NCBI GenBank assembly: GCA_023213315.1
Contig: JAKCPI010001600.1
Coordinates: 62,001-126,000 of the forward strand
From: Euborellia annulipes
Lineage: Eukaryota; Arthropoda; Insecta; Dermaptera; Anisolabididae
DNA length: 64,000 nucleotides
Direction of reading: 5' to 3'
Positions 1,107 to 38,233 of this stretch are shown piece by piece. Within the stretch, counting starts at the first letter, position 1. Every line of letters begins with the position of its first letter. The position numbers and the translations under genes were made by a program. The notes under the pieces are model-generated. The model did no database searches and was not told the DNA's origin. It was given only the letters and a program-made list of their open reading frames with translations.

Positions 1107-4100
1107 GTAAAAAAAAATCATTGAATTAAAAAAAAAATGATGATACTATGGGCTTATCCAGCTCAAAACGAAAAAGGGGGGGGCAACTTTTCTAATATTC
1201 ACTTTATTATTTTATTAAATGTACAACCTAATTGGTGATATGGGGCGTTACTAGTAGTTTTTGTCTTTTCAGAGATAGTGTGAATTTTTCATTTTTTTAT
1301 TTATTTTAATTTCAAATTCGGAAGGAGTGCAGCTGCCCCTCTCTGGATAGGCCCATGTATTATGAAACTAATCAAGAAAAAGACTATTTTCAAAAAATTG
1401 ACATGACTTTATTATATAGTTTTTTATTTTAGTATTCTCAATTTGGATGACATTATTGGCTCACTTTCATTTCCGGATAATTCTTCTAGCCAAGTTCAAA
1501 TACCCGGATTAAAACTCACTGGCGATTTAGGAATTTGGGGGAAATCATTGCTTTTTGAAGCCGAAGATGGCTCCAAAGCTTGCGCCTCCATTGTCGTAAG
1601 TAAATAGTAATATAAATCCTATATGATTTTAAATTTTTTTTAAATATTGTATATCATATACCGGTATATCATGGATGAAGAATTTTTTTTAAAATGCAAA
1701 TAGAAAAGCAAATTATATTTATATTAATAGTATACCCAGGTACACCCTCACTTGCTATATGTCTACCATTCTGATGACTTGAAGAAAAATAAAAATAGCC
1801 TTTTTTTCATTCAAAACTTGTTTGAGATGAATTACAAATTTAGTCACGTGCTCTTTAAAAAAAAATGAATATTTTAACATAAATCCAGTATAAGTTTATA
1901 TTCAAAATTATTGAATATATTAATGAAAAAGAATGAATTTTTCCATATATTTAAGTTAAATATCTTTTTTTTTAATGTGAAGGTATAAATTGATCAATAT
2001 TCATGGAATCGGGCTTAAGAACAGGATCTCAGGAAGGCGGAAGTAACAAGGGTATCTCTACTTTTTAAATAATGAAAGATGAAAAAACCAAGTATCTCCA
2101 CTTGGGGATTCCACTTGTTGGTCGAAGGACATGATTCTATAGGTCAAATAAAAATATCATCAAAAGTCAAATTAATGAATAGTAATTAATAGAAGACAGA
2201 ATGAAAATTGAGTCACTCCTGTCCTCCATCGGTCAGTGAAGGTACTTTTAATAAATAGTACATATTAGTACATGGTAGTACATAGTATTAATACATAGTA
2301 GACTATAGTTTTAATAAATAGTACATAGATTCTGAAAGTGAAAATTATGCATCTTTTCATGAGATTTCAAACCTTTTTTGACAAGCATGATTTCTTTGCT
2401 TGTTTGGTTTTTTGATAAATATAATTATTTTTCGTTTTTTGTTAATTTTAAAACAATTTATATGAATAGAAAATAAAATTAGTTCTTATGAATTCATTCA
2501 TTCCTGCATTCTTTATAATTTAACACTGATTTTTAAAACTGATTCTTTAAAACAACTGAGTGCAAGAAATGGATAATTCCAACACATAATTCTCTCTTTT
2601 TTATATATTTCTTGATAAGTTATAAGTCTGAAAATCGATTTGTAAATGCATATTCATTAATACTTTCATATTATAATCAAATAATATACAAAATACAAAT
2701 TTAAAGTAATATAAAAAGTTTTTCTCGATTTTCTCAAAAGTTTAGATTTGGTTATTATCTATCTATTGCACTCATATCTTTAAACAAAGGATAAAAAGTT
2801 CTCTTTATTTATGATTATTAAATTTGGCCTGAGGAAGGTCGTGACTTGCGACCGAAACGTCGACGATTAATAATTAAATAAGTTTTTTATTTAATTTCCT
2901 TGGCTGCAAAGTCTCCTATACCCAATTATTAAATTTGGTTTGATGCCAATATATATATATATTTAACTTAATTTTAATTACTCATATATTTGGAAATTTT
3001 TAGGTTTCATCCGGGGCGGAAGAAAAACTCGCAGAAGCCCGATTCTATTCTCCAATCGCAGGACGAATATTTGTACGATGGTTGGGAGCTAAAAAAGCCA
3101 ACTTCACTGATGTTCTTGTGCATGTTAATTTGGAACATTTACCTGTGGCAACCACAACCACAACAACAACCGTTTCAGAAACAAATGTAACAACAATTCG
3201 ACCTCGGCCTCAAAAAATAAAAACTACCCAACATGGCTGGAAAATATTTGCAACGGATATTTTGGATTCAGAAGCCGGTAATAATAAATAGAATATATGA
3301 GAAACTTTTAAATGAAATAGTTAATGATTGGCTAATGAAAAAATCTTAATTGAAATTCTCTTCGATGTTTGAACCACAAAAGTTTCGATTAAACATTTTT
3401 TTTTTTTTAAACAAAGAAATTATCACATGAGAAAACGCATGGGATGCGTCGCTTTACCATGTTTCTTCTTGTGTACCGGTATGTTCTCTGCGATATTCAT
3501 TAACCGAACATTCTACATAAAAATCTTTCTATATTTGTTCAATTCATTTGCAGTCTTAAAATGTTCATTTACTTTAAAACATGATTAGTTCAGACCAAAA
3601 CACAGAGAGAAGTCTCACTTTTTTCTTCTCAGAGATTCACTTCCCGTCCTGAAAATTATTTAATTACAAAAACGTAAAAGAATAGAAATTATTTAAGATT
3701 TTAATTATAATTTTAATAAGAGAAAGACGTGCAAGCCTTTTTAACCAAATAGATCTATTTATATAAAAAGAGAGAGACATAATTTCATGCTCCAATTACT
3801 AAACGGATGTAGGTTATAATAAAATAATTTAATTATCTTTAAAAGCCTGTAATCAATTAACAAGTATCGTTTAATAGTTCATTTCAAGGTCAGAATACAT
3901 TTTCTCATCCCTGTCTTCAGACTTCTCTTCCTTATTTCCTTATTTCGGAGACTTTAATATACTGTAAGAGAAGTGCCTGGTGGGGAACAGGGAAAGCCTG
4001 GAATAAAGGGATCGAAGGAGGGGGGGGGGGTCAGCCAAGTGATAATTTCTATATTTCAATTCTCCCTCTTTCTTCGCCTTAATCCCGTGCTGCGGGGTCG

Positions 4101-7100
4101 GCGGTTCATGGGTTTTTGAGACCGGGAACGAACAGAACAGGCCGGCCCGTTACACGGACTGAAGGCTGTTGAAAATATAGAAGGGAAGAGGCTGATATGC
4201 AAAGAACAGAAGTACGTACCCATAAGATGTGGGCCCCTGAACTGATATTCTAATACTCTTGATAATCCTTATTTATTTACTTCAGGAAAATAATACTCGG
4301 TGATAAAATTGGTCTCATTTCTTTCTATTTATAAAATTTTAAATTTTATTTGATCCTTTTATTTTTATCCTTTAGGGTAAATTAATTAAATACATATTAC
4401 ATATTAGAAGATTGAAAATAAAATATTTTTTCAATTATAAATTAAAAAAATTGATTATATATATATATATATATATATAGGCTATAATTATTAAATTATA
4501 ATTATTAAACCCATTATTATAGTTTAAAAAAAAATTTCAATAAATTTTTATTTAATTAATAAATTTTATGAAAATGAACTAATTTTCAATAAAATAATCG
4601 ATGTTCTCATACCTTTCCGTCAGCATTTATTTTTAGAAGTATATCTCATAGTCTTGTTTAATCATGGAGAGTGTGTGGGGGAAAAGCAAGTTTGTTTTGT
4701 CTCTTTTCAATCCGATCTCATTTGCCATTCTAACTCAATTTGATCAAGCAATAACATTTCTTTTCTGTACAATTTTATTTAATCATTCAATCATTAAGAC
4801 GAGTGATTTAATTTACTTGTTATCCAACATATGGTGTAAGTAAGAATATTTAATTCTTTTTTTTTTATAATTTTTTTGTTATTATTTAAAAAAAAAAACT
4901 TTTCTTAAATATACGTTTTTAAGAATCGTTTGCTATTTATGCTATTTAAGAGGTTTTCCGTTTCTGTCTTCATTTTTAAACCCGCTAATTAGAAAATATA
5001 TTTTTGGCAGCTTAAGCTAATCCTTGCGAAGAGATGTCTTCAACATTTTTAGTTACACTAATTCAAAATATGAAAATTTTAACAGCATCTTCTCTACTTA
5101 TCTTATGTGTTATTATTTATTATTTTAATGAAAATTTCTTAGCTATCTTCTTTTATCTTGGCCTAACCCCTATGTGGGATCGGCAAAATTAATCAATAAA
5201 AAAATGAGACCGAGAGAAAGGCAGAGTTGGTAAAAACCCGGTGAATTTAGATTATTTTTGTTAGGTGTGATTTATTTTTTCTGCTCTTGGCAGTTTTATA
5301 AAAATTGCAATATTTTTGCAAAAAAAAAAAAATAACCTTGCAAAATAAAGTAGGTAAACAACTTGATGTGTTACTATATAATTTTTCTTATAATGGTATT
5401 ATAAAGCCGAAACTTGAGTTTGGAAAGAAGGGATGAGATTAACACACTAAAAAAAAATTGAGTTACGAGGGAAAAGGGTAAGAGAAAGCAAAAAAAAACC
5501 GGTAAAACCCAAATAACAGTGGGTTTTATTAATTAAAAAACCCAGTGGATCTTGCCCACCTGGGAAAATTCTCTGCCAACCTTGGAGAAAAGCAAGACCC
5601 GTCTCATGGCCTGACGCTTTATATTTTAAAAGGGGAAAATAAGGCTGATATTAAAGTTAAATTAAATTAAAATAAAGTAAGAAATGCCAGCCTTAGCTCG
5701 GGTAACTCGTGGACAGGGCCGGAACTAGGAGATTTTTTAGGGGGGACAAAATTTAATTTGCCGCCCCCACCTTAAAATTTTCCCTGATCTCAAAAATTTT
5801 TTTGCGAACCAAATTTTCCCGTCCGAAAAAATATTTTACCTTTTTTAGAGACGCTAAATTTTTGCAACTCGCGTAACCAAAAATTTTTATCTTTCTTTAA
5901 TTGCCCCCCCCCCCCTGATATCTGCCGCCCGAGGCACGTGTACCCACTGCCCCCCCCCCTCCCCTAGATCCGGCCCTGCTCGTGGACGCATCCATTTACT
6001 CACTAGAAGGGAGTCCCTGAGTTTTTAGATAAATAAAAATTAAATATAAATCTCTTTCTAAAAATATTTGATTCTTCTTTACTAACTTCAATTTTTTTTT
6101 AGGATCCTTTCAGATTATAAATAAAAATTTTATAAACAGAATCGAAAATTCTTACTAAATAATATATCATTATTTGTATTTAAAACATTTTTGTTTATTT
6201 ATAATCTAATTTTGTTTTTTCTTTAATAGATAAATCGAGAGGCACGTGCAACTTCTTGAATTTGGTATTTGATCCCGTGACTGTTCCTGGTAAAGCACCA
6301 ATCGGTGATTTACTAACTCGCTTAGGACCTACACCTGTTGGAAGTCTTCATGTCCGTCATGATCCTGCTTTGGGAGTTATCGAACCAGGTCTTCTTCATA
6401 GCCAGAGATCTCTCTATTTCGTCATTTTCGACCATAAGCATCCTGATAGCTACTTAGCATGTGCTAAACTTCGGCTCATTGAGCCCACTATCCTTAAGTA
6501 AATATCTACTATAATAAAAAACTTTTTCTTAGCCATTTAATACCAATGATTTTATGGCAAAATTTAATTAATTTAAATTATTAGCATAAATTTTATGTCT
6601 GCACGGGCTTCGGAATCATTGGGGCAATTAGTTTAAAAAGAACTGATACTTATCCTATACTATTATCATTATTAATTAAAAATTTAATTAACCTTGAATG
6701 AACTTAAGAATCTCCGGATATATTCAAGGATGAATATTATTTCTAACTTTCTTCATTGTTCTTCTCTTCTATTTATGAGTATTCAAATATATTAGTGAAC
6801 TTGACCTCTATAAATAACATAAATGAATTAGTAATTGCTTTTTTATTTAAAAAAAATTAATATAAATAGGCCTAATATAAATATTTTTTTAATTAATTTA
6901 ATATTCAATTATTTTTGTTCTTTTTAAAACAAATATTTGCTTTCTCTTATTACAAACAGGGACGTAGTTAAGAAGGAAGCTCCTTAGCTTGGGCAGAGTT
7001 GAAGAAATTAAGGGCCAGTTGCAATAATAAGTTATTCACAATCTTAAAAAAAAATGGTATTAATAAAAATTTAAGACAATAACATTTACTATGAAATGAG

Positions 7101-10100
7101 ACAAGAATCAGATTTTTTGATTTTCATTTTATGAAGTAATAAATGCGAATTTTGACATAAAATCGTACTCTTTGAAATTTCTATTACAATGAAGTTCGGG
7201 TAAACGTTAACCAATTTAGATATAAGATTAAGATCTAAGGCCACCGTAGATACAGGTCAAAGGTGTTGGCAGCCACATATTGGCGCCAACTCCTTTGTCC
7301 TGTTAACCAATTTAGCTAAAATTATAATAGAAACCAATTAACTTTTTTTTTTTATACTAATGCAGAATTATTTCATTACAGGGCCTTAATTCAAAAGAAT
7401 GGAATTTTCGGAGATGTAACTTTGGAGCAACATTCACCGATGGATCCCACTTGGATCCATTGGAATTTAACGAGAAAACCAACAGCAGAACTTTGGCGAC
7501 GAGTTAATTCCTATAAGGTGCATGAATTGCCACCTTTGCCTCCTACATATACCAACAGGCACCTCAACCTTTGCACGACGACCGGCCAAGTGTTCAACCC
7601 AACTAACAAAAATATAGACGAAGGTTTTTTAATCCATATTAAAAATCATTAATTCAATAATCCATAATATATTTTCATACATTTTTTTTCTAGAAAAAAA
7701 TATTAATATTTTTTTAATCTTATTGTTAGTATATGACCATTGAACTCTGCATTTGTTTTTGTATCGTTTGTTTTAAGTAATGAATGGGGTGCCATACGTA
7801 CCGTTTTGACATTACAATGTCAAATGTTTTTGTCACAAGACAATATGATCAGTCTAGTAATGAGCAGAGCCGTAACCAGGAAAGGGGGGGAGGGGGGTTT
7901 GGTGACCCAAACCCCTCGAAATTCCGAAATATTATAAATAAACAAACATATAGAACCCCCTGGCTAGACGTGAAGCCAGTCGAATGCGGACGGCTTTAAA
8001 ATATAAATAAATTAAATTATTAAAATAAAATTACGATGCAAAGAAAATCAAAATAATTAACAAATTATATGTCAGAGATCACCGGACAAAAATATTTGCA
8101 AAATTTTTTTAATGAATATTTTGCTTTTTTATTATTTATTTATTAGATTAGATTAAGCACTTACTAATATTTGAGAGTTAAAACTTTCGCAGTTATTGTT
8201 ATTAAATGAAAATACTTGTTTTCAGCTAAACTTCTTGAGTTATTTGTACGTTTCGGTTCCTCATTCTGTAGCCTTCTTTAGGTATAAATTAAGATTAAGA
8301 ATCACAGAGCATCTTACACTTATACAAATAAACCACACTTTACGCGAAAACAAGAATTTTCCATTGATTATTAATATTTTTAGTTTCGGTATAAATTATC
8401 CAAATTATTATTATTGCAATATATAGGTTTTATTTTTTTTTTATTTTTTTTTTTTTTTTTTATTTTGATAAAATAATAAATTTCCAGGTGGTGCCAGTCA
8501 TGAAACTTACGCAATTGGAGATTTAAGTGGCAAACATAATATGTGGCGAGAAAATCAAACACTCGAACAACTTAATAATAATGGAAAACGACGATGGGAT
8601 TCAACACTTCCTTTAATGGGCAAATTTAGTGTATCTCATAGATCAATCGTCATTTACAGGTGATTTGGAATTAACTTTTTTATTTTATTTGGCGTCTTAA
8701 TAATAAGAGATCCTTAGAAAACAATTGTGAAGTTAATTGTTAGTATAAAATATTCTGCTCTAATTAAATTAATTTGAAAATAAAAAAAGAATTCAGCATA
8801 GTGTTGGCTCTTACTTAAAAAAGACAAGTTGAAATGAAAAAATCTGGTGTGACTGGCGCACAGCACACAACTTTCTCTTACCTTCGGTAATCGAAAGTTG
8901 TGTACTGTGCTTGTCACACCAGATTTTTTGTGTCGACATGTATTTAGTTCCCAGCAGTAGGGAATATTTGAATTCAGATGTAAAATTTATAAGTATGGGA
9001 AAATATTTATATTTTGTTACCATGGCAACCATTTCTCCTAACTTTCCTATGAAGCACAAGAGTAAAGTGTGCTTCAAACAATTTTGAGGGCAAAACGAGA
9101 ATATACATTTGAAAGAGCATCTAAAAAATAATTGATTTTTGAATTTCAATCAAAATCGTTAGAGCGAATTTTGAGAAAATCGAAAAAAACTGAAAAAGTA
9201 CATCAGTAAAGTATTTGTATTCTTTGGCCGATTTTGATTAAAAGCTTATTTTTCCGGTCCCGGGGGTGTTTAACTTAAATATAAAATTTCAGTCTCATAG
9301 CTCAATTCCTTCTTGCTTAAAAACCACTTTTTTGGATTCAGGGGACCTCAAAACGTGAAGATCCATCAAAATCTCGACATCGAATTTTTGACATGAATCC
9401 AATACTTTCTCTCTCTATATATTAACATATATATAGAGGTAAGAGAAAATAAAAATTATATCTTTGGAATACAACAGTAGGAGCAAACTTTAAAAAATAA
9501 TTTAATTTATTTTTCATTAGGATTTTGTTTGAAGATTAAAGGGCCCAGGCCGCTGCAATTTATATCCTCCTTCTCTCTGTCTGCAGCTCTCTTGTCAATT
9601 TAATAATCAATTCTTCTACCTACAGATTATGTTAACTACAAACATTATATATCTTGGTTGTCCTCACTTTTTTATGAGCCCAAACTGGGTAAAATTTAAA
9701 TTAATAATAAGTAAAATAAATAGTAATTCTTTTTTTTTTGCCTTGATAGTTTACTTAATAATTTTTGCTATTGAGAATTTCAATGATGACATATTTTCTT
9801 TCATTTTAACAGCTCGGTTGGTGACGCCTGGCTCTGCTCTACATTTGCTCCATATCGAGTAGTTGCAAAATCAGCTTGGAAAATCCCTTTAACAACAGCC
9901 GTTGTTTCTTTCCGATATCCGATTGTTGGCAGAGTATTAATTAGACAAGCTGTTGACCGACATTGGGCGGACTCAACAGTTCTTTTTGAATATCTAGTAC
10001 ATGCTGATGGAACTAGTACAAACAACACGGACCAACACCGTTGGGCAGTACACCATTATCGTCCAGGAAAGGATTTTTACGATTGGCAAAATCGTTGTTT

Positions 10101-13100
10101 AAGTGCAGGCGCAGTCTATAATCCATATAAAATCGTTTTTGAACCTGAAGAAAGATGCTGGGATCCATGGACTTGTGCACCAGGAGATCTAAGCGGGCGA
10201 CATGGTCGACTACAGATTGCCGGTTCTATCGGGAATGCCACTCGCCTATCGAGAATGCTTTTTACTGATCCTGCTGGAATGTTGGCTCTTAGTGGTCCCT
10301 TCAGCGTACTTGGCCGCTCTCTTGTTATTTATGATGATAATGGTCCTAAAGCAAGAGGAGAGCGTCTTGCCTGCTCGATGTAAAAACTGAATTTAATTAT
10401 ATTATAAGCTTAGTTCTATCAAAAAAAATTGTAAAAAATTTACAACTTCGGCCGGCTTCCTACTACTAATTCACACAACCGATGTTAAAGAATTTTATTT
10501 AACTAGTGGTTATATGGACATTAACTCAAAAATGGAATATTGAAATATGTTTAACATGATGGCAAAAAACAAAAACTTTTCTTTATTTTCCTTTCTTAAG
10601 TTATTGTGCCCAAAGTCCTCCCTTTACAAAAGTTTTGGTTATTCTATAGATTATAAAAAACCAGAGTTGTAATTTTTTAGTAATTTTAAAGAATTCATTT
10701 TTGAAATAAAAGAAAAAAGACAGAGGAATTTAAAACATTTTCATATAAATAATAAATTACACTTCTTCTTTTGGATTTTATTAGCTCATTGTTTTAAAAT
10801 TCTATTCATTTTTATAGAATATCTCTAGCCTATTTTATATTTATATTTAAATTTTTTTTTTTAGCATTGGAGGACTTTATCGTCGAAAAGCGGTAGCGAG
10901 AGATTGGTATGGAAATGGAATGCCAGCTAAAATTCGAGGAAAACTTGAATTTTTTCAAGCTACTGAATATGATATGCTTGATGCCGAAATGGAACTAAGC
11001 GGCTTAAATAATGTTGATAAATATCACATTCATATGGTGAGTTATTTTCATTTTTATTAATTCAGATAAAGCTTTGTTATGGATAGAAGTTTATTTATTG
11101 CAATAGCTTTTTGACGCTAAATTAGCAATTGTACAATTTGTTTCTCAGCCTGATATTTTACATTAGAGTGCTGTGACAGTAGCAAAAAAAAGAAACTTCC
11201 TATTGGTGTTTTGTTTGTTTCCAAAGTTTCAAATTGAAATATCTCAGAACTATTAAATATATATTAATTCATATATCCGAAAAAATAAGGGTGTGCCGCC
11301 GGGAGTCGAACCACGGATCCTCCGATTTGTACTCAGAGTGCCCTACCACTGGACCACAGCACAAATAAATAGTTCTGAGATATTTCAATTTGAAACTTTG
11401 GAAACAAACAAAACACCAATAGGAAGTTTCTTTTTTTTGCTACTGTCACAGCACTCTAATGTAAAATATCAGGCTGAGAAACAATTTGTACAATTGCTAA
11501 TTTAGCGATCTCAGCTAATTTAAATAACCGAATGCCGTGCTGTGGTCCAGTGGTAGGGCACTCTGAGTACAAATCGGAGGATCCGTGGTTCGACTCCAGG
11601 CGGCACACCCTTATTTTTTCGGATATATGAATTAATAAATATTTAATTGTATAAATTTCGCGGCTCATATACGCGATATATATAATATCTTAAATATTAT
11701 ATATAATTTCTTATTTATTATCTCAGAACTATTTATTTGTGGGTTAGCATTATCTGCTCCCAACCCCTTCATATATATATATATTTATTTCTAATATGAC
11801 GATATCTTATTTTTCAGACACCAGTTGAAGGGAATTTAGAATTCCCTTGCGAACGATCCACTCTTTATGATGAATGGGATCCTTTCAACATCACAGCTGG
11901 GGCTTCTGTTCCTCCACTTAATGGGACTCCGGACCAATTTCGAGCTGGAGATTTGAGTGGGAAACACGGCGGCATTGAAGGACAACAGGCCATTCATTTT
12001 TCTTATAACGATACCGGACTAACCCTTTTTGGACCAATGTCGTTTATTGGGAGATCGATTGTTTTTCATAAATATGGAGATAAGACAAGGTATTAAAAAA
12101 GTGAATTTATGTATTTTATACAATATAACTAATAACTTTTTACCATTATAATTTCAATAAATGCATTGTTTATTTTATAAGTTCAATTGAAAACTCATGT
12201 TTTTATATTGAACCACTCAAAATAAACGCCTCAAATTTTATTCTTTTGGAATAAAACAACCACTAGATAGGAAAGGAGACTGCAGCCAGGTAATCAGTCT
12301 CCACGAAATTAAATTCTCTGTTAAGGAAACAGTTTCGGTTTTAATGAAATAAAAAAAAAAAATTGCCATTTTTCCTGTGAAGTCATAAACCCATTTTCGT
12401 TTTCTTCTTCATTATAAATGCTTTTAAAACTTAAACTAGGACGAATTAATAATGTTCCATTCTCTACTACTGTTATGTGCTTTAAAAGACATAAAAGTAT
12501 TCTTTTTTATATAGTTTAAAAAAATCGGTGACCCACCACCCGTGGGGTCCACTTGTAAGATATGTTTAAACTTAATTATTTCACAAAATTATTATAAGAA
12601 GAAATTAACAAAATAACATTTTTTCAGAGTGGCATGTTCTTCTATTGAAAGAGGATATTCACCTTCAGAGGCTCGAGAACTCAGAGCGATTGCTTCTTTT
12701 CATCATCCTCTTGGATTTGCTTGGGGATATGTGAGAATGGTAACTGTTTTCTCCCATAACATCAAAACTAAAATATAGACTTTAATTTAATTGTGAGATA
12801 TATATATATATATCTTTCTATTTATATAATTCGCTAATGTCCGTCTGTCAGTCTGTCACGCTCTATTTAGACAACTTTCCATAATTTCCGGAATTTCGAA
12901 ACCAAATTTTATTTAGCAAGTTTGCGAGATATGTTTGTACTTAAGATTGGGGAAAATTGCACCCTCCTGGAGTCGAACCAGGACCTCCACGCTTTCGCGG
13001 CGGGTGGACTACCCTTATCCTAGGGCGCCGGCCCAATCTTAAGCACAAACATATCTCGCAAACTTGCTATCTTAAACGATATATTGACTGGCTAATGAAA

Positions 13101-16100
13101 TCTACTTGAGCATTGATTGAAAAAATTCCATCTTTTCAAACAAGGCTCTACCTAGTTCAAATTTTATATGTTTATAGAGGATCTTTTAGGGATTACAGAA
13201 AAATTATTTTCATCCCGAAACTTCTATAACTTTTTGGGTTATTAATTCCTAAAGTTAGGATTTCTCCCATAGGAAATGTATAGAGAAATATTTATATATT
13301 AGGATAGGTGTAGGCTAGTTTCTTGGCAATGGGAAAATAACTTTTTAGAGTGTTTTCTGCGAATATTTCGAAGGTATTTAATAGTACTTCTTCAACAGAG
13401 GCAATGCCTTCGAAATATTCGGAGCTAGGCGAGAAGCCTGACGAAGGCGGAAGGCGTGGCTAATATATATATATATATATAAAGTTCTGAAAGGTTTGGG
13501 GGGTTTCCGCAACTTGGTATATGCGAGGATAAGTTTTCTCGGGTTAAGTGGCGTGGGATTTTGAGATTTATTCGACGTTACGGTTCTCCTTATGGAGCTA
13601 TTTTCAAGAGAGAAGAGTGTAGGAGGTAATGATTGAGGAGAGTCATCCACCAAACCTGACCTGGGGACAAACAAGACTGCAACCCGTAAACAACCCTCCT
13701 CCATAATTACATCCTAACTCCCTTCTCTTTTGAAAATGGCTCCAAAAGGAGAACCGAAACGTCGAGTAAATTTCAACATTCCACGCGACTTAACCCGAGA
13801 AAGCTTATCAAAAAATACGTTTCCCAAATTTTCAACATAAAATATTAATTTTTAAAAGTTAATTTTTTAATATGTCAGTGCCTTACTTTCAATGTTTTCG
13901 AGTGACTTTTAAATATTCATATTAAAGATTTAATAAATTTTAAATTTTTTAAATTAGTCGGTTTTTTTGCGCCACCCTAATATATATATGTATATATACA
14001 GGGCCGTGCCTAGGTTATTTAGCGCCCGGGGCAAGTTAGTCCTTTAGCGCCCTTTGTATATATTTTTTACATTGTCACAATAATGTTTCCCGTCCCGAAA
14101 AATGTTTTACCTTTTTACCTTTTTTTAGAGACGCTAAATTTTTTCCGCCCCCGGGACCGAAATTTTTTCCCGTTTGGCGCCCCCGGAACCAAAATTTTTT
14201 TTCCCGTCCGAAAAAATGTTTTACCTTTTTTTTAGAGACGCTAATTTTCCGCCCCCGGGACCGCCCTAGGCGGCCGCCTAGTTTGCCTAGTGGACGCGCC
14301 GCCACTGATATTAGCATTATTAGCATTCAAAGATTCATCTGCACTTGCGCCCCTTCAAAATTTGCGCCCTGGGCAAAGGCCCCGGTCGCCCCTCCCTAAG
14401 CATGGCCCTGTATGTGTTATATATATATATATATATATATATATTGATGATAGGCCCCATCTATCGAACCCTGGATTTCCGTGGCATCGGTGTATTTTCC
14501 AATCCACCAGGCTTATAAATCTTACATTTAGTTAAAGTGTTAATTCTTATTTTCTCTATTCGAGGCTTTTTGTTTATAATATCCGTTACAATATATATCT
14601 CGAAAATTTATAATAAAATATAAAATAAACTAACATATGTTAGTTATTGTTATCATAAAACTAGAGCTTTTGCAGGTTTTTGAGCCCTACATTTAAAGGA
14701 AATTTAATTTATAGTTTTCACCTAATTGTTTTAAATAAAATATTAAATTGCTGATCGTTTTGTTTTTGTTCAATTAAAATTGAGCTGACAACATGTTTTG
14801 CTTTTATTTTTTTCCTCGATCAGCATATCTTCATTTAAGTTTAATTATATAAATAAGCATATATTTAATAAATAATTTTATTTTTTAGACTCAACTTGTT
14901 TATAACGACAACAGCAAGAGTGATACCATTATAGAAGTAAATTTGAGACATCCTGGTGTTAATGATAGAAATTTTGTAAGATAATATTATTCACATGTAT
15001 GATTTATTTTAATTTTTTTCTCTAATTTAATTTCTTAATTTTTTTTAGACGCGTAATCACAATTGGGCTATTTATGTTAATCCCGTAGGCGTAGATGCCT
15101 CAGTGAAAATTTTGAATACGCGATGCGTGGCAGGTGGATATATGTGGAATCCTTATTATACTCAACTAGCTGACCCTCTTAATGTAAGTTAGCATATTTC
15201 ATTTGAGTTAGGAATAAAAGTAATTTGTACAAAAAAATTACGCTATATTAATAATATAAGCCCTAAAATAATTCAAAAAGTTTTATTTTGGTGTTGGCTG
15301 TGTCTTGTACCCAGTCGGTGGCCTTTTAAAGTGACAAGGTCTTTTGATTGACTTCAAACTATTTTTACTTTCTCTTACCTATATATGAAATATATAGAGA
15401 GAAAGTATTGTTTTTTTTTTTTTTTTACTTTGTTTCCATTAACAAACATGTTCATACATTTTCATAGTAACAATATAGGACTGGTATGGACAAACTTTTA
15501 TCCAATAAGGGCGACTTTTGCTTAAAAAATGAGGTTTTTCGAGAAAAAAATTGATTTTAGAGTTAATTAATCGGGATTTTTTTTATTTAGTCTATTAGAG
15601 TTTTTCTTTATGCACAAATTAACATCACATTTAGTCTGATCTGATTAGCCGTTCGGAATCTACAGTGGTTTAAACTTTCAAATTAGAATTTACCGCCGCG
15701 CGGTAAAATGAATAGATCATACATGCATTGTAAGACGTTATCACGTCAAAATACGCTATATTAATAATATAAGCCCTAAAATAATTAAAATATATATATT
15801 TATATATATTTTTATTAATTTAAAAATTCATCAGGCCATTAATTCTCTTCAAATAGTTTCTCGCCATAATAGAAATAAATAACTAAACGGTAAAGTTTAA
15901 AAATAAATTTATCTTCAAAATTTCTCATTTTCTCTCATGTTTTGATTTTCGAGTTGATAAGAGCAAAGGACACTCCTTATCTCTCTGACCTTTACACTAT
16001 TTATAGAATGTACACATTTGTTAAAATTGCCAAAAGCATTTCAAACTCATCAAATGGCTTTTCATTTAGGACGAGCTCTACAACGCTGAATGTGGCCCTG

Positions 16101-21387: not shown

Positions 21388-23986
21388 GTAAATTTGTAAT
21401 TGTTTTTTGCGTTCTAAAGTTGTAATGGCCTGCTCTCTCATCCTAGATCTCAATGACCTCTATTCTACTATCACCTTAATTTCACCTTAATTTTCTAGTT
21501 TTTTTTTTAATTTTTTTTTTCCTACTTGTCTTTCTCTTTTTTTAATGAGTGAATAAAGTTTCACCTGTTAATAAGATTTTTTTTTTTTACAGGAACAAAA
21601 CTAGTGAAGCTGAAAAAAATATTAAGAAAAAATCTACAGTAAGTAAATAAATAAATAAATAAATTACTTTGTTGTTTTTTGTGTTTTTTATTTTTTATTA
21701 TGACAAGCGATTTAGAAATTTTCAAATTTGAGAAAAAAAAAATGAGGGATTGTCGAAACATGAAATCTTGAAAAGTTAATTCAGCTGATTTAATAATAAT
21801 AAAATATTAATCTAGTCCGTTGATGGTCTTGGGCCTGGATCGTAAGTTAGTGGGTTCTCGCTTGACTGAATTCCGGTTGGACGACCTTGAGAAAGCGCGT
21901 TAAATGAATGTCGAGGAATTATAAAAAAATCCTGATTAAATATCAGTTAATGTAATTATTTTTTCTTAATTTCTTTCGATTCGATATACCAATTTGAATC
22001 TCTTATAATAAAATTTTCTTTTTTATAGCACATTAAAGTGAATTTTAAGAATTAAGGGTTAGGTGTCTTCCACATATTACGTCATGCCTTTTTTTGACCC
22101 CCTCTCCGTCACAGTTAGTCATATACAAACAACCCCCCCCCAAAAAAAAAAAAAAAAATATGTCCCAACTTTGAATTACCCCCTCCCCCTCTCCTCTTTC
22201 AACTCTATATGCCAGCTGTATTATTATTAAAAAATATTAGCTAAGTTTTGAACTGTCACATGATAATAAATTAGCGCTGCAAGCATTGGCACAAAACATA
22301 ACTAAATATCAAATAGTACTACTTACCCGACGTCGATAAATAATACGAAAAAAATTTTATAAATTCAACTTTGAACGACCTAATCCACATTTCACATTTT
22401 TTTGTTTGATGCCATAGTGTCTACTAAATCATGAATTCCAGAGAAGTACTGTACTACTATATCATGAGGAGTACTGTACTTCTCTGGAATTCATGATTTA
22501 ATAGATACTTAGGCATAAAACCAAAAAAGTGAAATATGGGTTAGGCTTTTCTGGCGCTGAAGACCTCAATTGTGATGTCACACTTAAAGAAACCCCCGGG
22601 TCCCCCATGTCCATTTTGTCCAGACCCCCCCTCCCCTAACGCGTTACGTAAATGTGGGCGACACCTTATAGGTTTATATTAGGCCTATACTTAAAAAATT
22701 TTTATTTCGGTTTTTGAAAACCTTAGTATAGTAATATAAGGTTATTAACTCAAACTACTAATCATCTTAAAATACTATTAAAAGATTAATTAATAAATTT
22801 CTATTTTAAATTATTTTAGGACAAAGAGACTAACAAGAAAAATATGCAACCACAAACAGATGGCGAAACTGCAACTCACACTAAAATAGAAGAAGTTGTC
22901 TCCAGTAAATCAAATTCCAAATTATCGCCTGAAAAACCAATGGTTATTATTGAAAAAAATGGTTTGTCGAATGAGAAAGAAGAAAAACAAAATGGAGATA
23001 GTCAAAGTAATGGAGAAAAAGAGGTAGATGAAAATAACTCAAAGAAGGATGAAAAAAAAACAGAAGAAAATAACGAAAGAGATGGAAGAGAAACACCTAT
23101 GAAACAATTAATTATACCTATAATACGAATTGAACACACAAATAATGTAAATTTAAATGAAAGTGACACTGAAAAAACTAACGATGATAAAATAAATGAG
23201 AATGAATCAGATCAATCGATTTCTATTAATGAACCAACTCCTGAAAATACTCCAGCGACTACACCAACAATCAAAACACGGAGATCAGCCAGGTTACTTC
23301 AGGATTCATTCTCTTCTTATACTGAAGAACAAGAGGAGGAAGTTGAAGAGGTTGAAGAAGAGGAAGAACAAGTTAAGCAAATAGAAGAAAAACAAGTTGA
23401 AGAAGATATAGTGGAAATACCTCCCGAGGTAGAATTGGAAGAGGAGGAGGAGGAAGACGATGATATTGAAGAGATCCAAATTGAACAACCTCCACCTTCT
23501 CTACCAAAGAGAAATGTAGAAGGATCGTCACAACCATCCTCTTCGAATTACACCTTACCAACCATTTCAGCACGACGTCCATTACGATCATCATATCCAC
23601 ACTCAGATATTATCTTAACGAAATATAAAAAGACACAATCCTTTTTATCAGAGAGCATGATCACTCATGATGGTCATGATGAGGATATTCCTAAACTAAC
23701 AAATAAAAGAAAAGCGGACTTTTCACCGGAAGCATCATTGAAAAAACCGAAAACAACATCACCAGGATTTTTTACAAGAATTGCATCTCCATTTAAATTC
23801 TTTAATAAAGAAGAGTCTTCCAGTTCGTTAAAAGAAGAAAAATCGACATCCTACATTTCAACAAAAACTGAAAAATTCATCGAAACTGATGATATTGCCA
23901 CCGAAGTTTGTGAGAAAATAACAGATGATCTAAAATCGCCCAAAGTAGCTCAACCTGTTCAGGGGAAATGGTGTCTTCTTATGTAA
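21269..23986 (+). CDS. Acidic CaaX-box protein, probably prenylated; family not recognised
   Basis: Exons 21269-21387, 21593-21638 and 22820-23986 join in frame to 443 residues. ATG 21269 sits in a good context (caaATGg) but is preceded by an acceptor-like site at 21256-21257 and open codons, so an upstream exon is possible. The protein is highly charged: a basic N terminus (KLSKKKEALERN), a long Glu/Lys/Asn region, a TRRSARLL motif near residue 208, a Glu/Asp block (about 224-276), a bipartite-like basic signal (NKRKADF...KKPK, about 349-366), then an aromatic/basic SPGFFTRIASPFKFF segment (about 369-384). It ends in CLLM, a CaaX box whose final Met favours farnesyltransferase. The layout (NLS plus farnesyl tail) resembles nuclear-envelope proteins such as lamins or insect Kugelkern. 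No rod or lamin-tail domain is seen, so that link is only a suggestion. Confidence 0.75.
21593..21638 (+). CDS. CaaX protein exon 2
   Basis: This 46-nt exon, with acceptor at 21591-21592 and donor at 21639 (gtaagt), restores phase 0. It encodes NKTSEAEKNIKKKST. Confidence 0.7.
22057..22671. mobile_element. Inverted-repeat element in the CaaX gene intron
   Basis: Outer ends (GGTGTCTTCCACATATTACG and CGTTACGTAAATGTGGGCGA, the latter followed by CACC) are imperfect complements. An inner perfect palindrome around GGAATTCATGATTTA lies at about 22425-22505. Confidence 0.65.
22820..23986 (+). CDS. CaaX protein exon 3
   Basis: Acceptor at 22818-22819; the open frame runs to TAA at 23984-23986 with the last codons TGT CTT CTT ATG (C-L-L-M). 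It is the longest uninterrupted coding stretch in the window. Confidence 0.85.
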   Translation, partial: DKETNKKNMQPQTDGETATHTKIEEVVSSKSNSKLSPEKPMVIIEKNGLSNEKEEKQNGDSQSNGEKEVDENNSKKDEKKTEENNERDGRETPMKQLIIPIIRIEHTNNVNLNESDTEKTNDDKINENESDQSISINEPTPENTPATTPTIKTRRSARLLQDSFSSYTEEQEEEVEEVEEEEEQVKQIEEKQVEEDIVEIPPEVELEEEEEEDDDIEEIQIEQPPPSLPKRNVEGSSQPSSSNYTLPTISARRPLRSSYPHSDIILTKYKKTQSFLSESMITHDGHDEDIPKLTNKRKADFSPEASLKKPKTTSPGFFTRIASPFKFFNKEESSSSLKEEKSTSYISTKTEKFIETDDIATEVCEKITDDLKSPKVAQPVQGKWCLLM

Positions 23987-26873: not shown

Positions 26874-27724
26874 CAGTGGTTCCCAACCTTTTTTGACCCA
26901 TCGCCCCTTTCTGGAGGTTGACTAACCCCTATCGCCCCCCTTTACATTTTCATTGTTTGCCTAATTTTAATTTGAAGTAAAGTGTAAATAATAAAGCAGT
27001 TTTATTATTTTAAACAATTTTATTACCGTAGGCCTATATACAGGGCCGCAGACAGACTTGACATGTCCCGGGGCTACTTGTAATACGCCCCCCCAAAAAA
27101 AAAGTTTTTTTTAGTATGTAAAAGGCTATTGTGGCCTTCATGCCAACAATTTTTTACACAGTTTTTGACACAACTTTTGAAATAGTTATACATAGCTTAC
27201 AATATTTATTTAAATAAAGTTATATAAAATTTTTCAAAATTTCCTAAACAAAGAGTTACAAAGTTTTAATTTATCGAGGCCAGATCTGGACAGAGGATTT
27301 CGGGGGAATCTGGGGGTATGGAAAATTTTTGAAAATTAGCACTGAAATCTGCATTTTTAGCTATCTTGAGTCGTGAAAAGATCAAACTTGATTTGAGCTT
27401 AAAGGGCCGGGCCCCTGAGAAAAAAAAATTCAAGAAAATGATTTTTAAATTGAAATTTAAGATTTGAGCTAAAAGTGACGTTTCAATTCTAGATTGGAAT
27501 TATCTTCAGACTATTTTATTTTTATGATAATATTTTGTCCTCTTCTATCCTGACCATCCTGTAAATAGGAGATTTTTCTCTTTGATTTTTATTTTTTAAA
27601 TTTTAGTAAACTAATAATTTTCTCCCTTTGAATACTCATCGCCCCCCAATCGCCCCCCGCTTATTTATCGCCCCCCTGAAAACCCAAATCCCCCTTGGGG
27701 GCGATCGCAGGTTGGGAACCACTG
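26874..27724. mobile_element. Non-autonomous hAT element, 851 bp, perfect 8-bp target duplication
   Basis: Ends CAGTGGTTCCCAACCT and GGTTGGGAACCACTG are classic hAT-type inverted repeats. GGCTAATG occurs at both 26866-26873 and 27725-27732. No transposase frame inside. Confidence 0.93.
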
Positions 27725-28757: not shown

Positions 28758-31412
28758 TGTAATTTAAATTGAACGCTATTTTCTAAAAGAGCCTAACATT
28801 AAGGAAGATGAAGAAAATAGACTATGCCTAACATTAAAAAGTTTGCTCTATCGACGCTTGAGGCGCCACTAATCAAGGACGCCTTGTAATTATGCAAAAT
28901 CTTTCAGAAATGGATATAAGGAAACCTATTCAATAGGGGATTTATTCATGTTCATTATAATCTTATTCAACAAATAAGAAATGAGACCCTCCCAGGTGAA
29001 AAAATTTATTTCAATTGATTTGGCTTCCAAATGGTCTCAGATGCCGAAAAAGAAAGTATATTACGTATAAAAAATAAATTAAAATTTTCACTAACAAAGA
29101 AATCCAATCTGAAATAAAAAAAAAAACAGATTATTAATTGTCTCGGAAATATCATTACGTTCTTTACGTGTATACCATACCACTACAAACTCTATACCAA
29201 AAGAAATCGTAGAATCCTTAAATTGGAAAGGAAATATTTTATTCTAAATTATATCTTTCTATAATCATAATTTATTTATACAACAAAAAATATATATATA
29301 TAAAAATTTTTGTAAAAAAAAAAAGAAAAACTTAATTCCCTACTTTTTTTGTATTTTTTTTTTCTTTTTGTGACAATTACAAATAAACTACTTGAAAAAG
29401 TGAGACATTTGTATACTAGATAACAATTTGTATTATAGAATAACAATTTTATTTGTTATTTAACATGGTCAGGATTTATTTATATTTAATTTGACAACAA
29501 TCTACAATAACAATTTTTCTTATTTATTAAGAGAAATACATATAACCATCAGCCATCAAGGAAATTAATAAATATATTTATTTATATATATTTTTATATA
29601 ATATTATAACTAACTTGAAATTATAAGGAGATAAGAAATTTAAAATTTTAAAGCATTTTTTTTTTTATTATAATATTAATAATGAATACTGATAATGAGA
29701 TATTTGGTATTAATCACAACATTTACTCAAGATGTTAAAACAAAAATTTTATTGCTTTTTGTTTTTGAGAAAATTTATTCTTTATAAAAAAAAATGAATA
29801 TTTCGAAAGTAGAGCTTAAAAAAAGACTTTTCTTGTATTTATTGCTTTTAAATATTTAATAGAGGAGAGGATATATGATTTGATTTGAAATTGGAAAAAA
29901 AAAATACATTATTGTCTAGAAACGTAAAAAAGTGTCTCAAGAAATAAATGGTAACAGGTCATTTTATAAATTTTATAAATATTTTTATTTAATTATGTTC
30001 CGCATATCGATCCCATTTCTAAGGGATCAGTCTTTTTTTTTTATTCGATTTAGTTTTATTTTTTCATTATTTCTTTTAGTTTTTGAAAATTTTATTTTAT
30101 TATACATTTTTTTTTTTTTTTTTTTTTTGGCAATAACCAGATCGCTGGCCAATAACTAATTTTCTCAATCATACTAAGAACGTTACAAGTTCTCATATCA
30201 AGGGAGAATTTAACTATTTAATTTTCAGCTGGAAAGAGTTAAGACTCGGATCCAGCAGGCGAGATAAATAAAAATACAGAGATATCTTTAAAAAATTCCT
30301 AAATAAAAATAAATTTTTGACTGCTTTCTATCTAGCGGAGGGAGCCATGAGATAAAATATTTTTATTTATTTTATTCCCCAGGAGTCATCTAAAATATTT
30401 TCCGAATTTAGAATTTAAATTTTTATTCAAAATAAATTTATAATCCTTGATCAAATGGTTGATTTGGCGAGGACACATAAAAAAAAATTATATTCTATTT
30501 AGGCTCTCTTACTATCATCACTCATTATTTAACATAAGTGTTCATTTTTTGCATATTTTTTTAAGTATTGTATGTTCTATATATTATTTAAAAATTCTAA
30601 TTTAGTTTAAGTTTCAGTATTTTGTTTATTATGTCGCCAGCAGCATTGGCGAGTATGGGGGGGGGGGGGGGGGGATTTGAACAAACAAAAAAATTCTATA
30701 AATCCCTAATATCCAGTTAAAGCTAAAGAGAGGTGAGAGTTTTAGGACTCGTATAGCCCTTACAGTCGCTACGCAAAGGGTCAAGTGTGGTCCAAGACCT
30801 GAAGTGGCTACTAATCAAATGAAATAAAAAGAGACGGGATCTAAATGGCTTTAAATGCCGAAAAAAACCCTGTTGGGACAGGGCTTAGCAAGAAACTCTG
30901 AAATGTTTAGGTTTTCTCGAAATGTCTTGGTTTTCTATCTTTGAGTAGGCCCTACGTGATGACCATGAGTTGGCCGAGCTAAAGATGGTATTTTTCTGCT
31001 CATTTTATGTTAGCTTTTACCCTTTTTCAAGCATGACTTATTTCTACTCTCCCTGTTGCGTCTCTTTTTAAAATTTAACATGCCAATCCCACCTAGAGTT
31101 AAAGAAATAAAAAATTTTTTCACGAGAAAAAAAAAATTTATTTTTCTTGAGGAAAGTTTTTTAATGAAAAGATAATAATAATAAATAATAATCTCTGTAT
31201 ATATTAATTGCACCCCCCTCTCGTCCTAACGAGGTGTTTGGCTACGCCCATGAATTAGACCGATATAGCACTGAGATCAAATAGACGACCCTCCCCCTCT
31301 CATTGTCATTGATTGAAGTTGCAGAAATAGCAAATTTATAAATGAGATATCGGTAAATGTTGATAAGGGGTCTAAACACTAAACCAAGGTGAGAAAGGTT
31401 AGGGATATTATA
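28758..31412. other. Intergenic, AT-rich
   Basis: Holds SINE-body fragments (AGATGCCGAAAAAGAAAG near 29040; GATCTAAATGGCTTTAAATG near 30838), an 18-G run at 30657-30674, and the end of a TACGCCCATG-type element near 31200-31250. No gene seen. Confidence 0.45.
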
Positions 31413-33474: not shown

Positions 33475-33550
33475 ACAGATATAATTTCAAAGACTGATGA
33501 TGGGAGAATAAAGTTTTCCCGAAACGTCTCTGTAATTGTAATAAAATTGG
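33475..33550 (+). ncRNA. Hammerhead ribozyme-like motif, copy 3
   Basis: Core CUGAUGA at 33494-33500, one extra U, helix II GGGAGAA/UUUUCCC around a five-base loop, GAAAC at 33521-33525, GUC at 33526-33528. Helix I starts with AGA/UCU (33491-33493 with 33529-33531). Confidence 0.58.
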
Positions 33551-33643
33551 AGGCTTTGATTTTTGGCTGCTCCTGTTCCCTCTTTGAGTGGAAATATTTC
33601 TACTCGAATGCTATTTATTTATACCCAATCGCTATTTCAATTG

Positions 33644-34175
33644 AATGCACAGGGCAACAAAAAGGAACTTTTTTTTTGTTGAGTGAGAATTTGAAGCTAT
33701 TTCAGGGTATTTGGGTAGCGCTGATTCCAAAAATGCCATCAGTTTTACCCCATCACGTCAGATTTTAGAGCTATAGAGAAAATAAAATGTTAATAGAAAA
33801 TGTGTGTAAAGGGGCTTTAATTTTATATTACCTGGATTTTTTTAAGACGACATCCTTTAAAAATATGCAGATAGTTATAATACATATAAATTTTAAGTTT
33901 CAGCCCAATCGGAGGTCATTTAGACGTGCCGCAAACGGCTAAAAGTTTAGAAAATCAAATTTTTTCAGTTTTTTTTTTGCTTTAGTCACCCCTAATACAA
34001 TTTTAGGTATCCCTGTATGAAAAAAAACATATATTTACGATATTCTATAGTTCTTTGGCTTTCTAAAAATCATTCATTCATAAAAATCTGTTAATTATTA
34101 AGGAAATTATGAACAAAAACGTCATCAAAAAAAAAACACAAGTACACTCACTGGTCGAAAAAAATGAACTTCTTT
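33644..34175. repeat. Single copy of the palindrome-arm repeat
   Basis: About 530 bp matching 45640-46135 closely (e.g. GGTATTTGGGTAGCGCTGAT, AGTACACTCACTGGTCG at the end). It lacks the mirrored arm. Confidence 0.8.
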
Positions 34176-35534: not shown

Positions 35535-36227
35535 TAACTATAACATTAACATATGTGTTTGTGAGCAAACATTAATCTATTATTGGGTGTAGTTTAGAGT
35601 AAATGATTTCATTTACCTGGTCCAAAACCCGAAAATAAGACAAAGTTTCTTCTAAAGCAACTTAATTAAAAGAAAATTTTTAAAGACCCTGTTTTTTTTT
35701 TTTTTTTTTTATTTATTTGAAGTTAACGTTGAGCTTATATTTTATTTAAAAAAAAAAACGGGGAAAAATTTCTATCATCAATATTAAAATAGTGAAAATC
35801 AAATAATCTATTTATCTTATCAATGATTTATATACTTGGTTTCATAGGGACCACCATTTCAGCAAGGAGCAAAGCCTTTGGTTCTCAAAACCAAATTAGG
35901 TATTTTCGGACAAAATTTATTGCATTGTTGTGTATTATATAATATTCTCTATCATAACTTCGGGCATAATTACAAGCAGCATAAGTGAATAAATAAATTT
36001 TGTCCGAATCATCCTTTGTTTCTTTGCTACGATCTGCATGGTATTTTTCTCCAAATTTCGAACAGCACCTTACTTCTAAACAATCTAACTATAGTCTGTT
36101 TAATGTAACTTCAGAGCATGTAGATGTTAGGGAAGGAGTTGAAGCGAAAGAGCAGCTAGAGTGTGTCCTAGGTATTTTGGTTTACACTTACTTTGTGAGA
36201 TTTTTTTCAAAAACACTTCGGCTGCTA

Positions 36228-36579
36228 AATAGGGATGGACAGGATCGCGATCTTTTTGGATTTAAATCCGAATCAGAATTTTCGGATCTGTATCGAAGTA
36301 CTTTTTTTTGTGAGGATTTTGGATTTGAATCGAAATCATTTTTGCTCTCTGGATCTGGATCTCTGGATTCTAATCCTTTTCGAACGATTAGCAATCCTAG
36401 ATTTTCATGATCTTTTTCAAAGCCCATTGCCAATCCTTTACTTTTTAATAAAAGCATATTGTTTTCGCTTAAAAATCAAGTCCGGATCGGATTTTTGGAT
36501 CGCGGATCTGGATTTGAGGGTCGGAAGTGCCATCCTTTTTCTAAATCGTTAATTCGTTTTAAAGAATTTTGCCCATCCT
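36228..36579. mobile_element. Short transposon with 8-bp target duplication, purine/pyrimidine-rich
   Basis: Ends TAGGGATGGACA and TTGCCCATCCT. GGCTGCTA is duplicated at 36220-36227 and 36580-36587. The interior is full of GGATC/GATTCGGAT-like repeats read as degenerate GATCC motifs. Confidence 0.75.
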
Positions 36580-37942
36580 GGCTGCTAATACACACGTCAC
36601 TAATTCACACGCTGCATTTATTCGAGATTTGAAATTATATTAAATAGATTTTAATATATAATAATTTTATATGAAAGTGAATGATTGGCTAGAATGGATT
36701 TCTTGATCTCCAAAGGTAAAGCAGCCTTGACGTTGAGCCAAAAGCTAGTCTAGTTGCCGAAGGAAGTGAGAAAATAACGTGAAACATTCAGGCTGATTTG
36801 AGGGGTTAGTTATAAATTTTTTTCTAATATAATTAGCACGACTAAACCTATTTGACCTCAAGGAAGACTACGGGCCGTTCTCTCCAATCATTCTTTCGAA
36901 AAACTTAAAATTATTAAGTGACAATGAAAATAAAATCATAAAAATCCGCGCCCTAATAATAAGAAACAATGATCCAAACATAACATTTACTTTCGCTTAC
37001 ATTAACATATTTATTTTATTTTTTTAAACTTTATTAAATATATCAACATTTATTTTTTCCTCTTCATATTTGGACTCATTTATTAATTTAATAGATATAG
37101 AGGCCATTCAAAATTCATTGTATGATTTGTATTATTTTTTTTTAATGACTAGATGTAATATTCACAAGCAAAATTCAAATTCTCTAAGTTATATTAATAA
37201 TATTATTAATTACAATTTTTTTTTTTTCGGTAAAAAGTTTGCAATGCCATTTATTAGTTTATTAAAGCTAATAACTTACTAATTTTTATTTATTTTTATT
37301 ATTTTATTCTAAAATGAGTTTTTTTTTAAGGTGCTTCAAATCCTTGATGCTTCGATTGTGAATAACACTTTGGTGCGTACAATTGTGAATTGAAAAAAAT
37401 ACTCTTTTTCTTGTTCTATTGAAGTAATATAATTTTTTCATATACTTATATACCTGAGTGTCAATGTGTCTATATAAGAATAAATTAAAAAAAAAAAAAA
37501 TTTGAAGAAATATCCCTGTTAAAAATAAATTCATCTATCCAAATTAAAAAAAAAAGAAAGGTTTTAGTGCGTTTTGCGTGAAATTAAATTTGCCATATTA
37601 TTATATTTTTTTCTCAATCCTTTTTGAATCATTTCCATCTTATATCACATTTAATTTTGGGATATTAAACAAGATATGTTATTGTGAAGATAATATAGTC
37701 GTCATAACTCAAAATAAATCCCCTCCACAAACCACCAATTTAGAGATTTTTTTTCAATGTTTCTGATTTTGGGTGAGTTATCCAATAATTATTATTGCGC
37801 CTTTAGTCGCTAGTTTAGAAAAAAAAGTCTAGAATAAAATATTAGACTAATTTTAAATTAGATATGTTCGAAATAGTGGCTGTGAGATGTATAGATTGAT
37901 AGATATGGGCAGGAGCAGCCAATAAATAGACTCTGTATGCAG

Positions 37943-38005
37943 ATTCAATCACCGGAGACGTTTCGGTTCCTTTTATTTAAGAACCATCTTTAGTCCTTAG
38001 AATAA
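37943..38005 (-). pseudogene. Decayed hammerhead-like copy in the left arm of the palindrome
   Basis: Mirror image of copy 4. The core reads CUAAAGA on the minus strand (37993-37987), so the invariant G of CUGA is lost, and distal helix I is broken. Helix II and GAAACGUC remain. Confidence 0.5.
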
Positions 38006-38164
38006 ATGAAATACAATTGCACAGAGTTAGTCAGTGTTATCTTTGGCACTCACCAGTGGAACCATCGTAAAATATTTTTGACCTTGAATATACATGTGTA
38101 ACATTTTTATGACTAAACAACAATGTATATGCCAAAGATAACACTGACTAACTCTGTGCAATTG

Positions 38165-38233
38165 TATTTCAATCTAAGGACTGAAGATGGTTCTTAAATA
38201 GAAGGAACCGAAACGTCTCCGGTGATTGAATCT
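38165..38233 (+). ncRNA. Hammerhead ribozyme-like motif, copy 4
   Basis: Core CUGAAGA at 38181-38187, one extra U, helix II GGUUC/GAACC (38189-38193 with 38205-38209), GAAAC at 38210-38214, GUC at 38215-38217. Helix I has GGA/UCC next to the core and a distal seven-pair helix UUCAAUC (38168-38174) with GAUUGAA (38224-38230), separated by an internal loop as in natural type I hammerheads. Confidence 0.65.

Follow-up and report, generated by a model that had tools for sequence, protein, structure and literature searches.

Which kind of element leaves short, dispersed copies of a hammerhead-like RNA motif in an animal genome, each with one extra nucleotide in its core? The question is raised by a stretch of Euborellia annulipes DNA (contig JAKCPI010001600.1, positions 62,001 to 126,000), called here the window (64,000 nt; all coordinates are window positions). 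An initial annotation had placed four such copies. Read directly from the letters, their coordinates and strands were all correct, as was the order helix I, CUGANGA, one nucleotide, helix II, GAAAC, GUC, helix I in each of them. The observation was right and slightly understated: seven copies of a minimal hammerhead motif were found across the window, five intact and two degenerate (both-strand scan, flank BLAST and repeat search). They are further members of a known hammerhead kind, and most probably the 3′-terminal remnants (solo pseudo-long terminal repeats, pLTRs) of several families of Penelope-like elements (PLEs).

Seven hammerhead motifs and their downstream box

Both strands were scanned for YTGANGA and GAAAC with helix II 0, 1 or 2 nt from A9. 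A helix II of at least 4 bp was present in five copies, and the offset was 1 in 5/5. Among them was a copy absent from the initial annotation, with an intact core at 27509-27477(-). The degenerate copies, 37993-37957(-) and 52445-52413(-), came from the flank BLAST and the repeat search. The names below give the core start, with m for the minus strand.

476..532, minus: c520m, minimal hammerhead; CTGAGGA, extra T, GGTTC/GAACC, GAAAC GTC; helix I CAGCT/AGCTG, 5 bp; predicted cut after base 488; A9-T-G reads ATG
2817..2873, plus: c2829, minimal hammerhead; CTGAGGA, extra A, GGTCG/CGACC, GAAAC GTC; predicted cut after 2861
27465..27521, minus: c27509m, minimal hammerhead; CTGAAGA, extra T, AATTC/GAATT, GAAAC GTC; helix II 5 bp, helix I 3 bp; no downstream box
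33482..33539, plus: c33494, minimal hammerhead; CTGATGA, extra T, GGGAGAA/TTTTCCC, GAAAC GTC; predicted cut after 33528; A9-T-G reads ATG
38169-38229, plus: c38181, hammerhead in the right arm of an inverted pair; predicted cut after 38217; A9-T-G reads ATG
37945-38005, minus: c37993m, degenerate hammerhead in the left arm of the inverted pair; CTAAAGA, G5 replaced; helix II and GAAACGTC retained
52401..52457, minus: c52445m, degenerate hammerhead; CCGAAGA (U4 changed), extra A, GGTCGCG/CGCGTCC with one T-T mismatch, GAAAT GTT

The hammerhead core, in type I order (CUGANGA ... GAAA ... UH), was intact in 5/7 copies. The closed helix III of canonical type I hammerheads was absent: GAAACGUC leaves a loopless 2-bp ACGU in 5/5 intact copies. 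A type I core, helices I and II and a loopless helix III are what the cited passages give for minimal PLE hammerheads, and all were present here. The proximal helix I of c2829 had one non-standard pair (G-A), and its distal part was 8 bp long; the c2829 region was 79% identical to c52445m over 81 nt. The weakest and least secure of the five intact copies is c27509m.

Since helix II had been a selection condition in the first scan, a second scan used only the core letters. Five pairs of CTGANGA and GAAACGTC lay at most 45 nt apart in the window, with a helix II of 5–8 bp at offset 1 in 5/5 and of just 0–2 bp at offsets 0, 2 and 3. A strict form of the motif, with GAAACGTC and no fewer than 5 bp in helix II, occurred five times in the window and in none of 300 dinucleotide-preserving shuffles; at offsets 0, 2 and 3 the window held none. 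Over all 300 shuffles, the offset-1 form with plain GAAAC turned up twice. The window had 11 occurrences of CTGANGANG (2.5 expected) and nine of GAAACGTC (0.75 expected).

The varied helices that still pair, also reported in the initial annotation, held up against partner shuffles, controls which preserve column make-up and ignore the relatedness of the copies (n = 7 only). In the intact copies, 25/25 helix II pairs were standard (equalled in 1/5000 shuffles), with two or three pair types at each position, and so were 14/15 pairs of proximal helix I, i.e., its first three pairs (2/5000). The offset-0 register gave 15/25 pairs, equalled in 58/5000 shuffles. With all seven copies included, 34/35 helix II and 19/21 proximal helix I pairs were formed. 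In a four-copy alignment 96.9% of the cells were paired, with two-sided change in 7/8 pairs, and pairing fell to 6–58% when the partner was slid by 1–3 columns. The dispersed motif family is thereby confirmed as real and far above chance, with covariation in helices I and II.

Both model searches proposed in the initial annotation were run on the window. A covariance model built from four copies retrieved all three left-out copies, c33494 included. The scores were 56.6 bits for a copy nearly identical to one in the training set, hence not independent; 27.9 bits (E 9e-5); and, for 52445(-), 20.0 bits (E 0.012). Two uncounted matches scored above 52445(-). One of them, 56085(+) with 20.7 bits, has no GAAAC; the other, 13718-13775(+) with 23.6 bits, carries CCGAAACGT without the downstream box, as does 8236-8293(-) with 12.6 bits, and these two are perhaps decayed hammerhead copies. 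Rfam gave no hammerhead in the window, neither at gathering score nor at E ≤ 10. We do not take this silence as counter-evidence, because three predicted viral loci of ordinary offset, without the extra nucleotide, failed too: none had a gathering-score match, L043 reached 26.1 of 52 bits, and L047 and L071 had no hammerhead match at E ≤ 1. The test looks insensitive. Current Rfam models were silent on such motifs here, and the motifs would escape any search that requires helix II to follow A9 directly.

A second conserved sequence lies downstream of most copies. The TTGGCTGC octamer occurred six times in the window, with 0.46 expected from base composition. In 5/6 cases it followed a copy's GUC or GUU, at distances of 34, 34, 34, 36 and 38 nt; the remaining octamer, at 60326(-), had no motif copy ahead of it.

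451..458, minus: TTAGCTGC, box variant of c520m, 29 nt past the cut
2900..2907, plus: TTGGCTGC box of c2829, 38 nt past the cut
33563..33570, plus: TTGGCTGC box of c33494 (TTGGCTGCTCCTG), 34 nt past the cut
37915..37922, minus: TTGGCTGC box of c37993m, 34 nt past the cut-site position
38252..38259, plus: TTGGCTGC box of c38181, 34 nt past the cut
52369..52376, minus: TTGGCTGC box of c52445m, 36 nt past the cut-site position

From the near-constant distance, the conserved unit consists of the ribozyme, ~35 nt and the box. A +1-offset hammerhead followed by TTGGCTGC ~35 nt on is a simple search key for further copies, and the set is a well-supported added example of minimal hammerheads dispersed in animal DNA. 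In two copies the spacer contained a clear stem-loop; the two are alike, but built from different pairs.

2872..2896, plus: 10-bp A+U stem-loop between c2829 ribozyme and box, z −1.93
52378..52403, minus: 11-bp stem-loop between c52445m ribozyme and box, z −2.56

As a family-wide feature the stem-loop was rejected, three other spacers having z-scores of −1.14, +0.32 and +0.67.

Two copies, c37993m and c38181, form a head-to-head inverted pair, with three mismatches and a 4-nt length difference between the arms and both boxes toward the outer ends.

37892..38048, minus: left arm, 157 nt, with c37993m (inverted-pair comparison)
38049..38129, no strand: spacer between the two heads, 81 nt, outside the near-identical arms (inverted-pair comparison)
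38130..38282, plus: right arm, 153 nt, comprising 51 nt upstream, c38181, the box and the tail end (inverted-pair comparison)

The two outer ends had no common word of 5 nt or longer. One such pLTR-like pair fits the pLTR order of PLEs (partial tandem or inverted). The other five copies have no such partner: the model search of the whole window found none beside them, and the flank BLAST found none alongside 520(-) and 52445(-).

Other repeats lie close to two of the copies. A dispersed repeat with the theme GGCTATTTAGTCCCAATCTCTATTTATTTCAATTGATTGG was found at 30801-30852(-), 33583-33647(+), 38786-38850(+), 50770-50875(-), 53920-53972(+) and 59350-59421(-), and one of these begins 12 nt past the c33494 box. 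The segments 1252-1357(+) and 52690-52802(-) match at 74% over 115 nt, the latter lying 245–357 nt upstream of c52445m.

Origin of the copies

Minimal type I hammerheads without helix III are described from PLE pLTRs and, as thousands of dispersed motifs, from animal genomes; they may cleave as dimers, and the cited passages give their role as unknown (PMC7229834, PMC6155905, PMC7761336). Compared via citing papers, the hammerheads of Cervera and de la Pena 2014 and of Lunse, Weinberg and Breaker 2017 resemble the present copies in type I order, in having helices I and II and no real helix III, and in being dispersed and non-coding; of the present copies, 7/7 carry the extra nucleotide, and a TTGGCTGC box ~35 nt downstream is recorded for them. 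The initial annotation had named both PLEs and retrozymes as known carriers; the PLE lead was supported here, and retrozymes were not.

Two PLEs allow a closer comparison. In the Poseidon PLE of Anolis carolinensis (PAc), reverse transcription starts inside the template, 111–118 bp into the open reading frame (ORF), genomic insertions end at the reverse transcription start sites, and both strands of the target are cut and extended (PMC11167929). Insertions finish shortly downstream there as they do here, and the last base before the predicted cut of c520m lies 26 nt past A9 (26–30 nt in the intact copies), close to the 26 bp given for Anolis (PMC11167929). PAc differs in having an ORF and a protein, which was required for cleavage in the cited account (PMC11167929), whereas no ORF remains here; also, the helix II loop is variable in length here. 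The Penelope pLTRs of Adineta vaga measure 181–218 bp and are inverted mostly head to head, and one family includes the first 12 codons (PMC3846280). Shared features are the head-to-head inversion, the DNA captured between pLTRs, solo pLTRs without target-site duplication (TSD) and a short optional tail. In contrast, most A. vaga inserts retain the ORF, several have TSDs of 8–10 bp, the pLTRs are longer than the ~155 nt found here, and the cited passages mention no ribozyme (PMC3846280).

A PLE-type origin could work as follows. In the intact parent RNA, helices I and II would fold within one copy, and the loopless 2-bp ACGU helix III would form only between two motif copies, the arrangement proposed for published PLE variants, or else be stabilised by an element protein, for which Anolis provides the demonstrated case. 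Cleavage would occur after GUC. Reverse transcription would begin a short way 3′ of the ribozyme, and new insertions would keep the 3′ piece, often lose the remainder, and at times end up as a head-to-head inverted pair. Most remnants would then be made up of a minimal type I hammerhead, ~35 nt of spacer (with a stem-loop in two copies) and, near the insertion end, the TTGGCTGC box. Because such an insertion would leave the ribozyme and a short tract, at times as an inverted pair with outward tails, we read the copies as solo pLTR-like remnants.

The copies in the window are probably inactive relics. On the same strand, no two intact copies lie closer than 4.7 kb, and the sole close pair (37993-/38181+) is inverted, which makes cleavage of these copies unlikely. 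Action as dimers, which the initial annotation mentioned for such hammerheads, is in line with what the cited papers say of this kind, but meets an unfavourable arrangement here. When two identical copies were paired with RNAcofold as a dimer model, the ACGU helix III was predicted in 0/5 and helices were swapped between strands in the duplexes of four copies, a modelled outcome that neither supports nor excludes dimers. The folding z-scores of the five intact copies were −0.72, −2.51, −2.50, −2.76 and +0.20, two of the five being unremarkable; the last is that of the A+U-rich c27509m, whose free fold differs from a hammerhead. Longer constructs gave the expected helix II in 4/5 intact copies (c2829, c33494, c38181 and c520m), not in 27509(-), and in a shorter c2829 construct a different fold won.

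Several results weigh against a PLE origin. No PLE reverse transcriptase or GIY-YIG domain was found by Pfam at E ≤ 0.1 in 84/84 stop-to-stop segments of at least 75 aa, a search which shorter decayed pieces would escape, and a six-frame search with seven PLE motif patterns gave two chance-like matches only. A missing reverse transcriptase/GIY-YIG ORF is expected of solo pLTRs, so that the copies are classed as PLE-like remnants and not as elements. The box was absent from 1/7 copies (27509(-)) and a one-letter variant in another (c520m), and the inverted pair had no TSD. Relatives with ribozyme and box were not found in viral contigs (5′ core in 0/32 loci); in prokaryote contigs the one locus, preceded by TTGATGA, looked like coding sequence matching by chance and was not accepted. 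Finally, ribozyme-dead mutants of the Anolis PLE inserted in vitro, and the cited passages report no RNA-seq ends at the cut (PMC11167929). These Anolis results argue against a required role of cleavage in transposition.

Other origins explain less of this. Metazoan retrozymes, small non-autonomous tandem repeats whose hammerheads yield circular RNAs, are an improbable source. They too are small non-autonomous animal elements with type I hammerheads, and the arm of ~155 nt may be set beside retrozyme RNAs of ~170–400 nt (PMC7229834). However, retrozymes form tandem arrays in the cited text, and their hammerheads are canonical, make loop-loop contacts and mostly possess a helix III. Neither such arrays nor such hammerheads are present here: helix III is loopless, Tandem Repeats Finder detected no period above 57 in the window, and the sole close pair is inverted, not tandem. 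To about the same degree improbable is a miniature DNA transposon with ~155-bp terminal inverted repeats, in which the hammerhead-like fold would be an accident. The 391-bp unit at 37892-38282, whose inverted arms are nearly identical and enclose an 81-nt centre, would suit it, and by eye there is a possible TA at both ends, though TA is common in 31% G+C sequence. Yet the model search left the other five copies without an inverted partner, the outer ends have no word in common, and what the copies share is the ribozyme and the box, not a terminal end.

Even less probable is a distinct functional class of host hammerheads, selected locus by locus, with the extra nucleotide as its defining adaptation. 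The offset kept in 7/7 copies and the strong covariation would agree with it, but selection on parent elements explains the covariation equally well, the copies are dispersed, with broken cores in 2/7 and one near-identical duplicate pair, and the same offset occurs in viral contigs (see below). We give as little weight to the idea that some copies, notably 27509(-), are chance resemblances in A+T-rich DNA. For this copy the missing box, the A+U start of helix II and the other fold (z +0.20) point that way; its core is nevertheless intact, with 5 bp in helix II and 3 bp in helix I, and for the set as a whole the count of five against none in 300 shuffles speaks against chance. PLE remnants remain the best explanation of the copies.

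The extra nucleotide after A9

The initial annotation had reported an extra core nucleotide in every copy, and this extends to the three further copies: one nucleotide followed A9 in 7/7, and in no copy did helix II adjoin A9 as it does in canonical type I hammerheads. Its identity was A, U, U, U and U in the intact copies, and U and A in the degenerate ones.

The same offset was found in hammerhead-like motifs of viral contigs. Two scans, one giving 25 loci of the +1 form and the other 51 of the +0 form, yielded 72 distinct loci together. They fixed GG...CC at the helix II base and GAAACGTC, and covered +1 and +0 only; the motifs are predictions, and the counts are no census. A helix II of at least 5 bp was present at +1 in 16/72 loci (12 distinct sequences), and without the extra nucleotide in 6/72 (4 distinct). 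Ten of the 16 loci (6 distinct) had compact stems I and III too, as follows, plus near duplicates:

L005, 4418-4452: compact three-stem +1 motif
L006, 6155-6189: compact three-stem +1 motif
L009, 1273-1307: compact three-stem +1 motif
L010, 3924-3958: compact three-stem +1 motif
L012, 2078-2111: compact three-stem +1 motif
L013, 174-208: compact three-stem +1 motif

Rfam gave no hammerhead at E ≤ 1 for L005, L012 and L013, and none at gathering score for L006. These predicted motifs resemble the window copies in CTGANGA, the one extra nucleotide, helix II and GAAACGTC, and differ in a real helix III, G+C-rich stems and unrelated hosts. As the offset recurs there, the extra nucleotide is not unique, and the two readings offered in the initial annotation, a variant class and an inactive lineage, are not supported by it. 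In the PLE reading it is an inherited and unexceptional trait of these hammerheads. Other insertions in the hammerhead core were tested by Perreault et al., some with low activity, and the cited passages name none after A9 (PMC3088659). In the free folds of c33494, c38181 and c520m the extra U was paired with G12, which may represent a competing inactive state.

One of the viral contigs scanned, the short contig of L047, also carries two type-P5 twister ribozymes on the minus strand, at 1318-1377 and 1810-1867 (54.0 and 49.2 bits, above gathering).

An AUG with a further G behind it arises in 4/7 copies (3/5 intact) from A9, the extra U and the G that opens helix II. An extra U before a helix II starting with G would agree with a start codon placed at the stem II base, and there is a slim chance that the extra nucleotide was kept for this reason. 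A9, the extra nucleotide and G10.1 would then be the AUG of the element, with the ribozyme core as translation start, the cut would separate the AUG from the downstream RNA, and the one-nucleotide insertion would define PLE hammerheads as a class. Since the cut is predicted 26–30 nt past the AUG, it would strip the start codon, and each transcript would serve either as mRNA or as processed template. Speaking against such a role, 3/7 copies have no AUG, and the frames that it opens end within 3–17 codons. With frames this short, a role in coding, if any, would lie with the parent element. Whether start codon and ribozyme core overlap in PLEs is in this way made directly testable.

Other features of the window

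Two exon-like segments were recognized. The first, at 9790-10380, resembles a Cu/Zn-SOD exon (Pfam Sod_Cu, 21.7 bits, under the cut-off of 28.9) and had 32 relatives, including one from the fly Megaselia scalaris at 49% identity, a name that by itself makes an arthropod host possible. The second is a sodium/calcium exchanger exon at 52923-53240(-).

Several inverted repeats were also present. The palindrome at 22397-22528 has 62-nt arms, 87% complementary and 8 nt apart; several microRNA-precursor models matched it below gathering, probably due only to the long hairpin. Inverted repeats of 140 nt (99% complementary) and 114 nt (97%) lie at 11115-11650. Rfam found a tRNA-like sequence in both 114-nt arms, and the region is perhaps a tRNA-derived element pair. 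Nested inverted repeats at 44982-47308 have arms of 599 nt and 545 nt, 99% complementary, and part of them recurs at ~33648-34171 with 92% identity.

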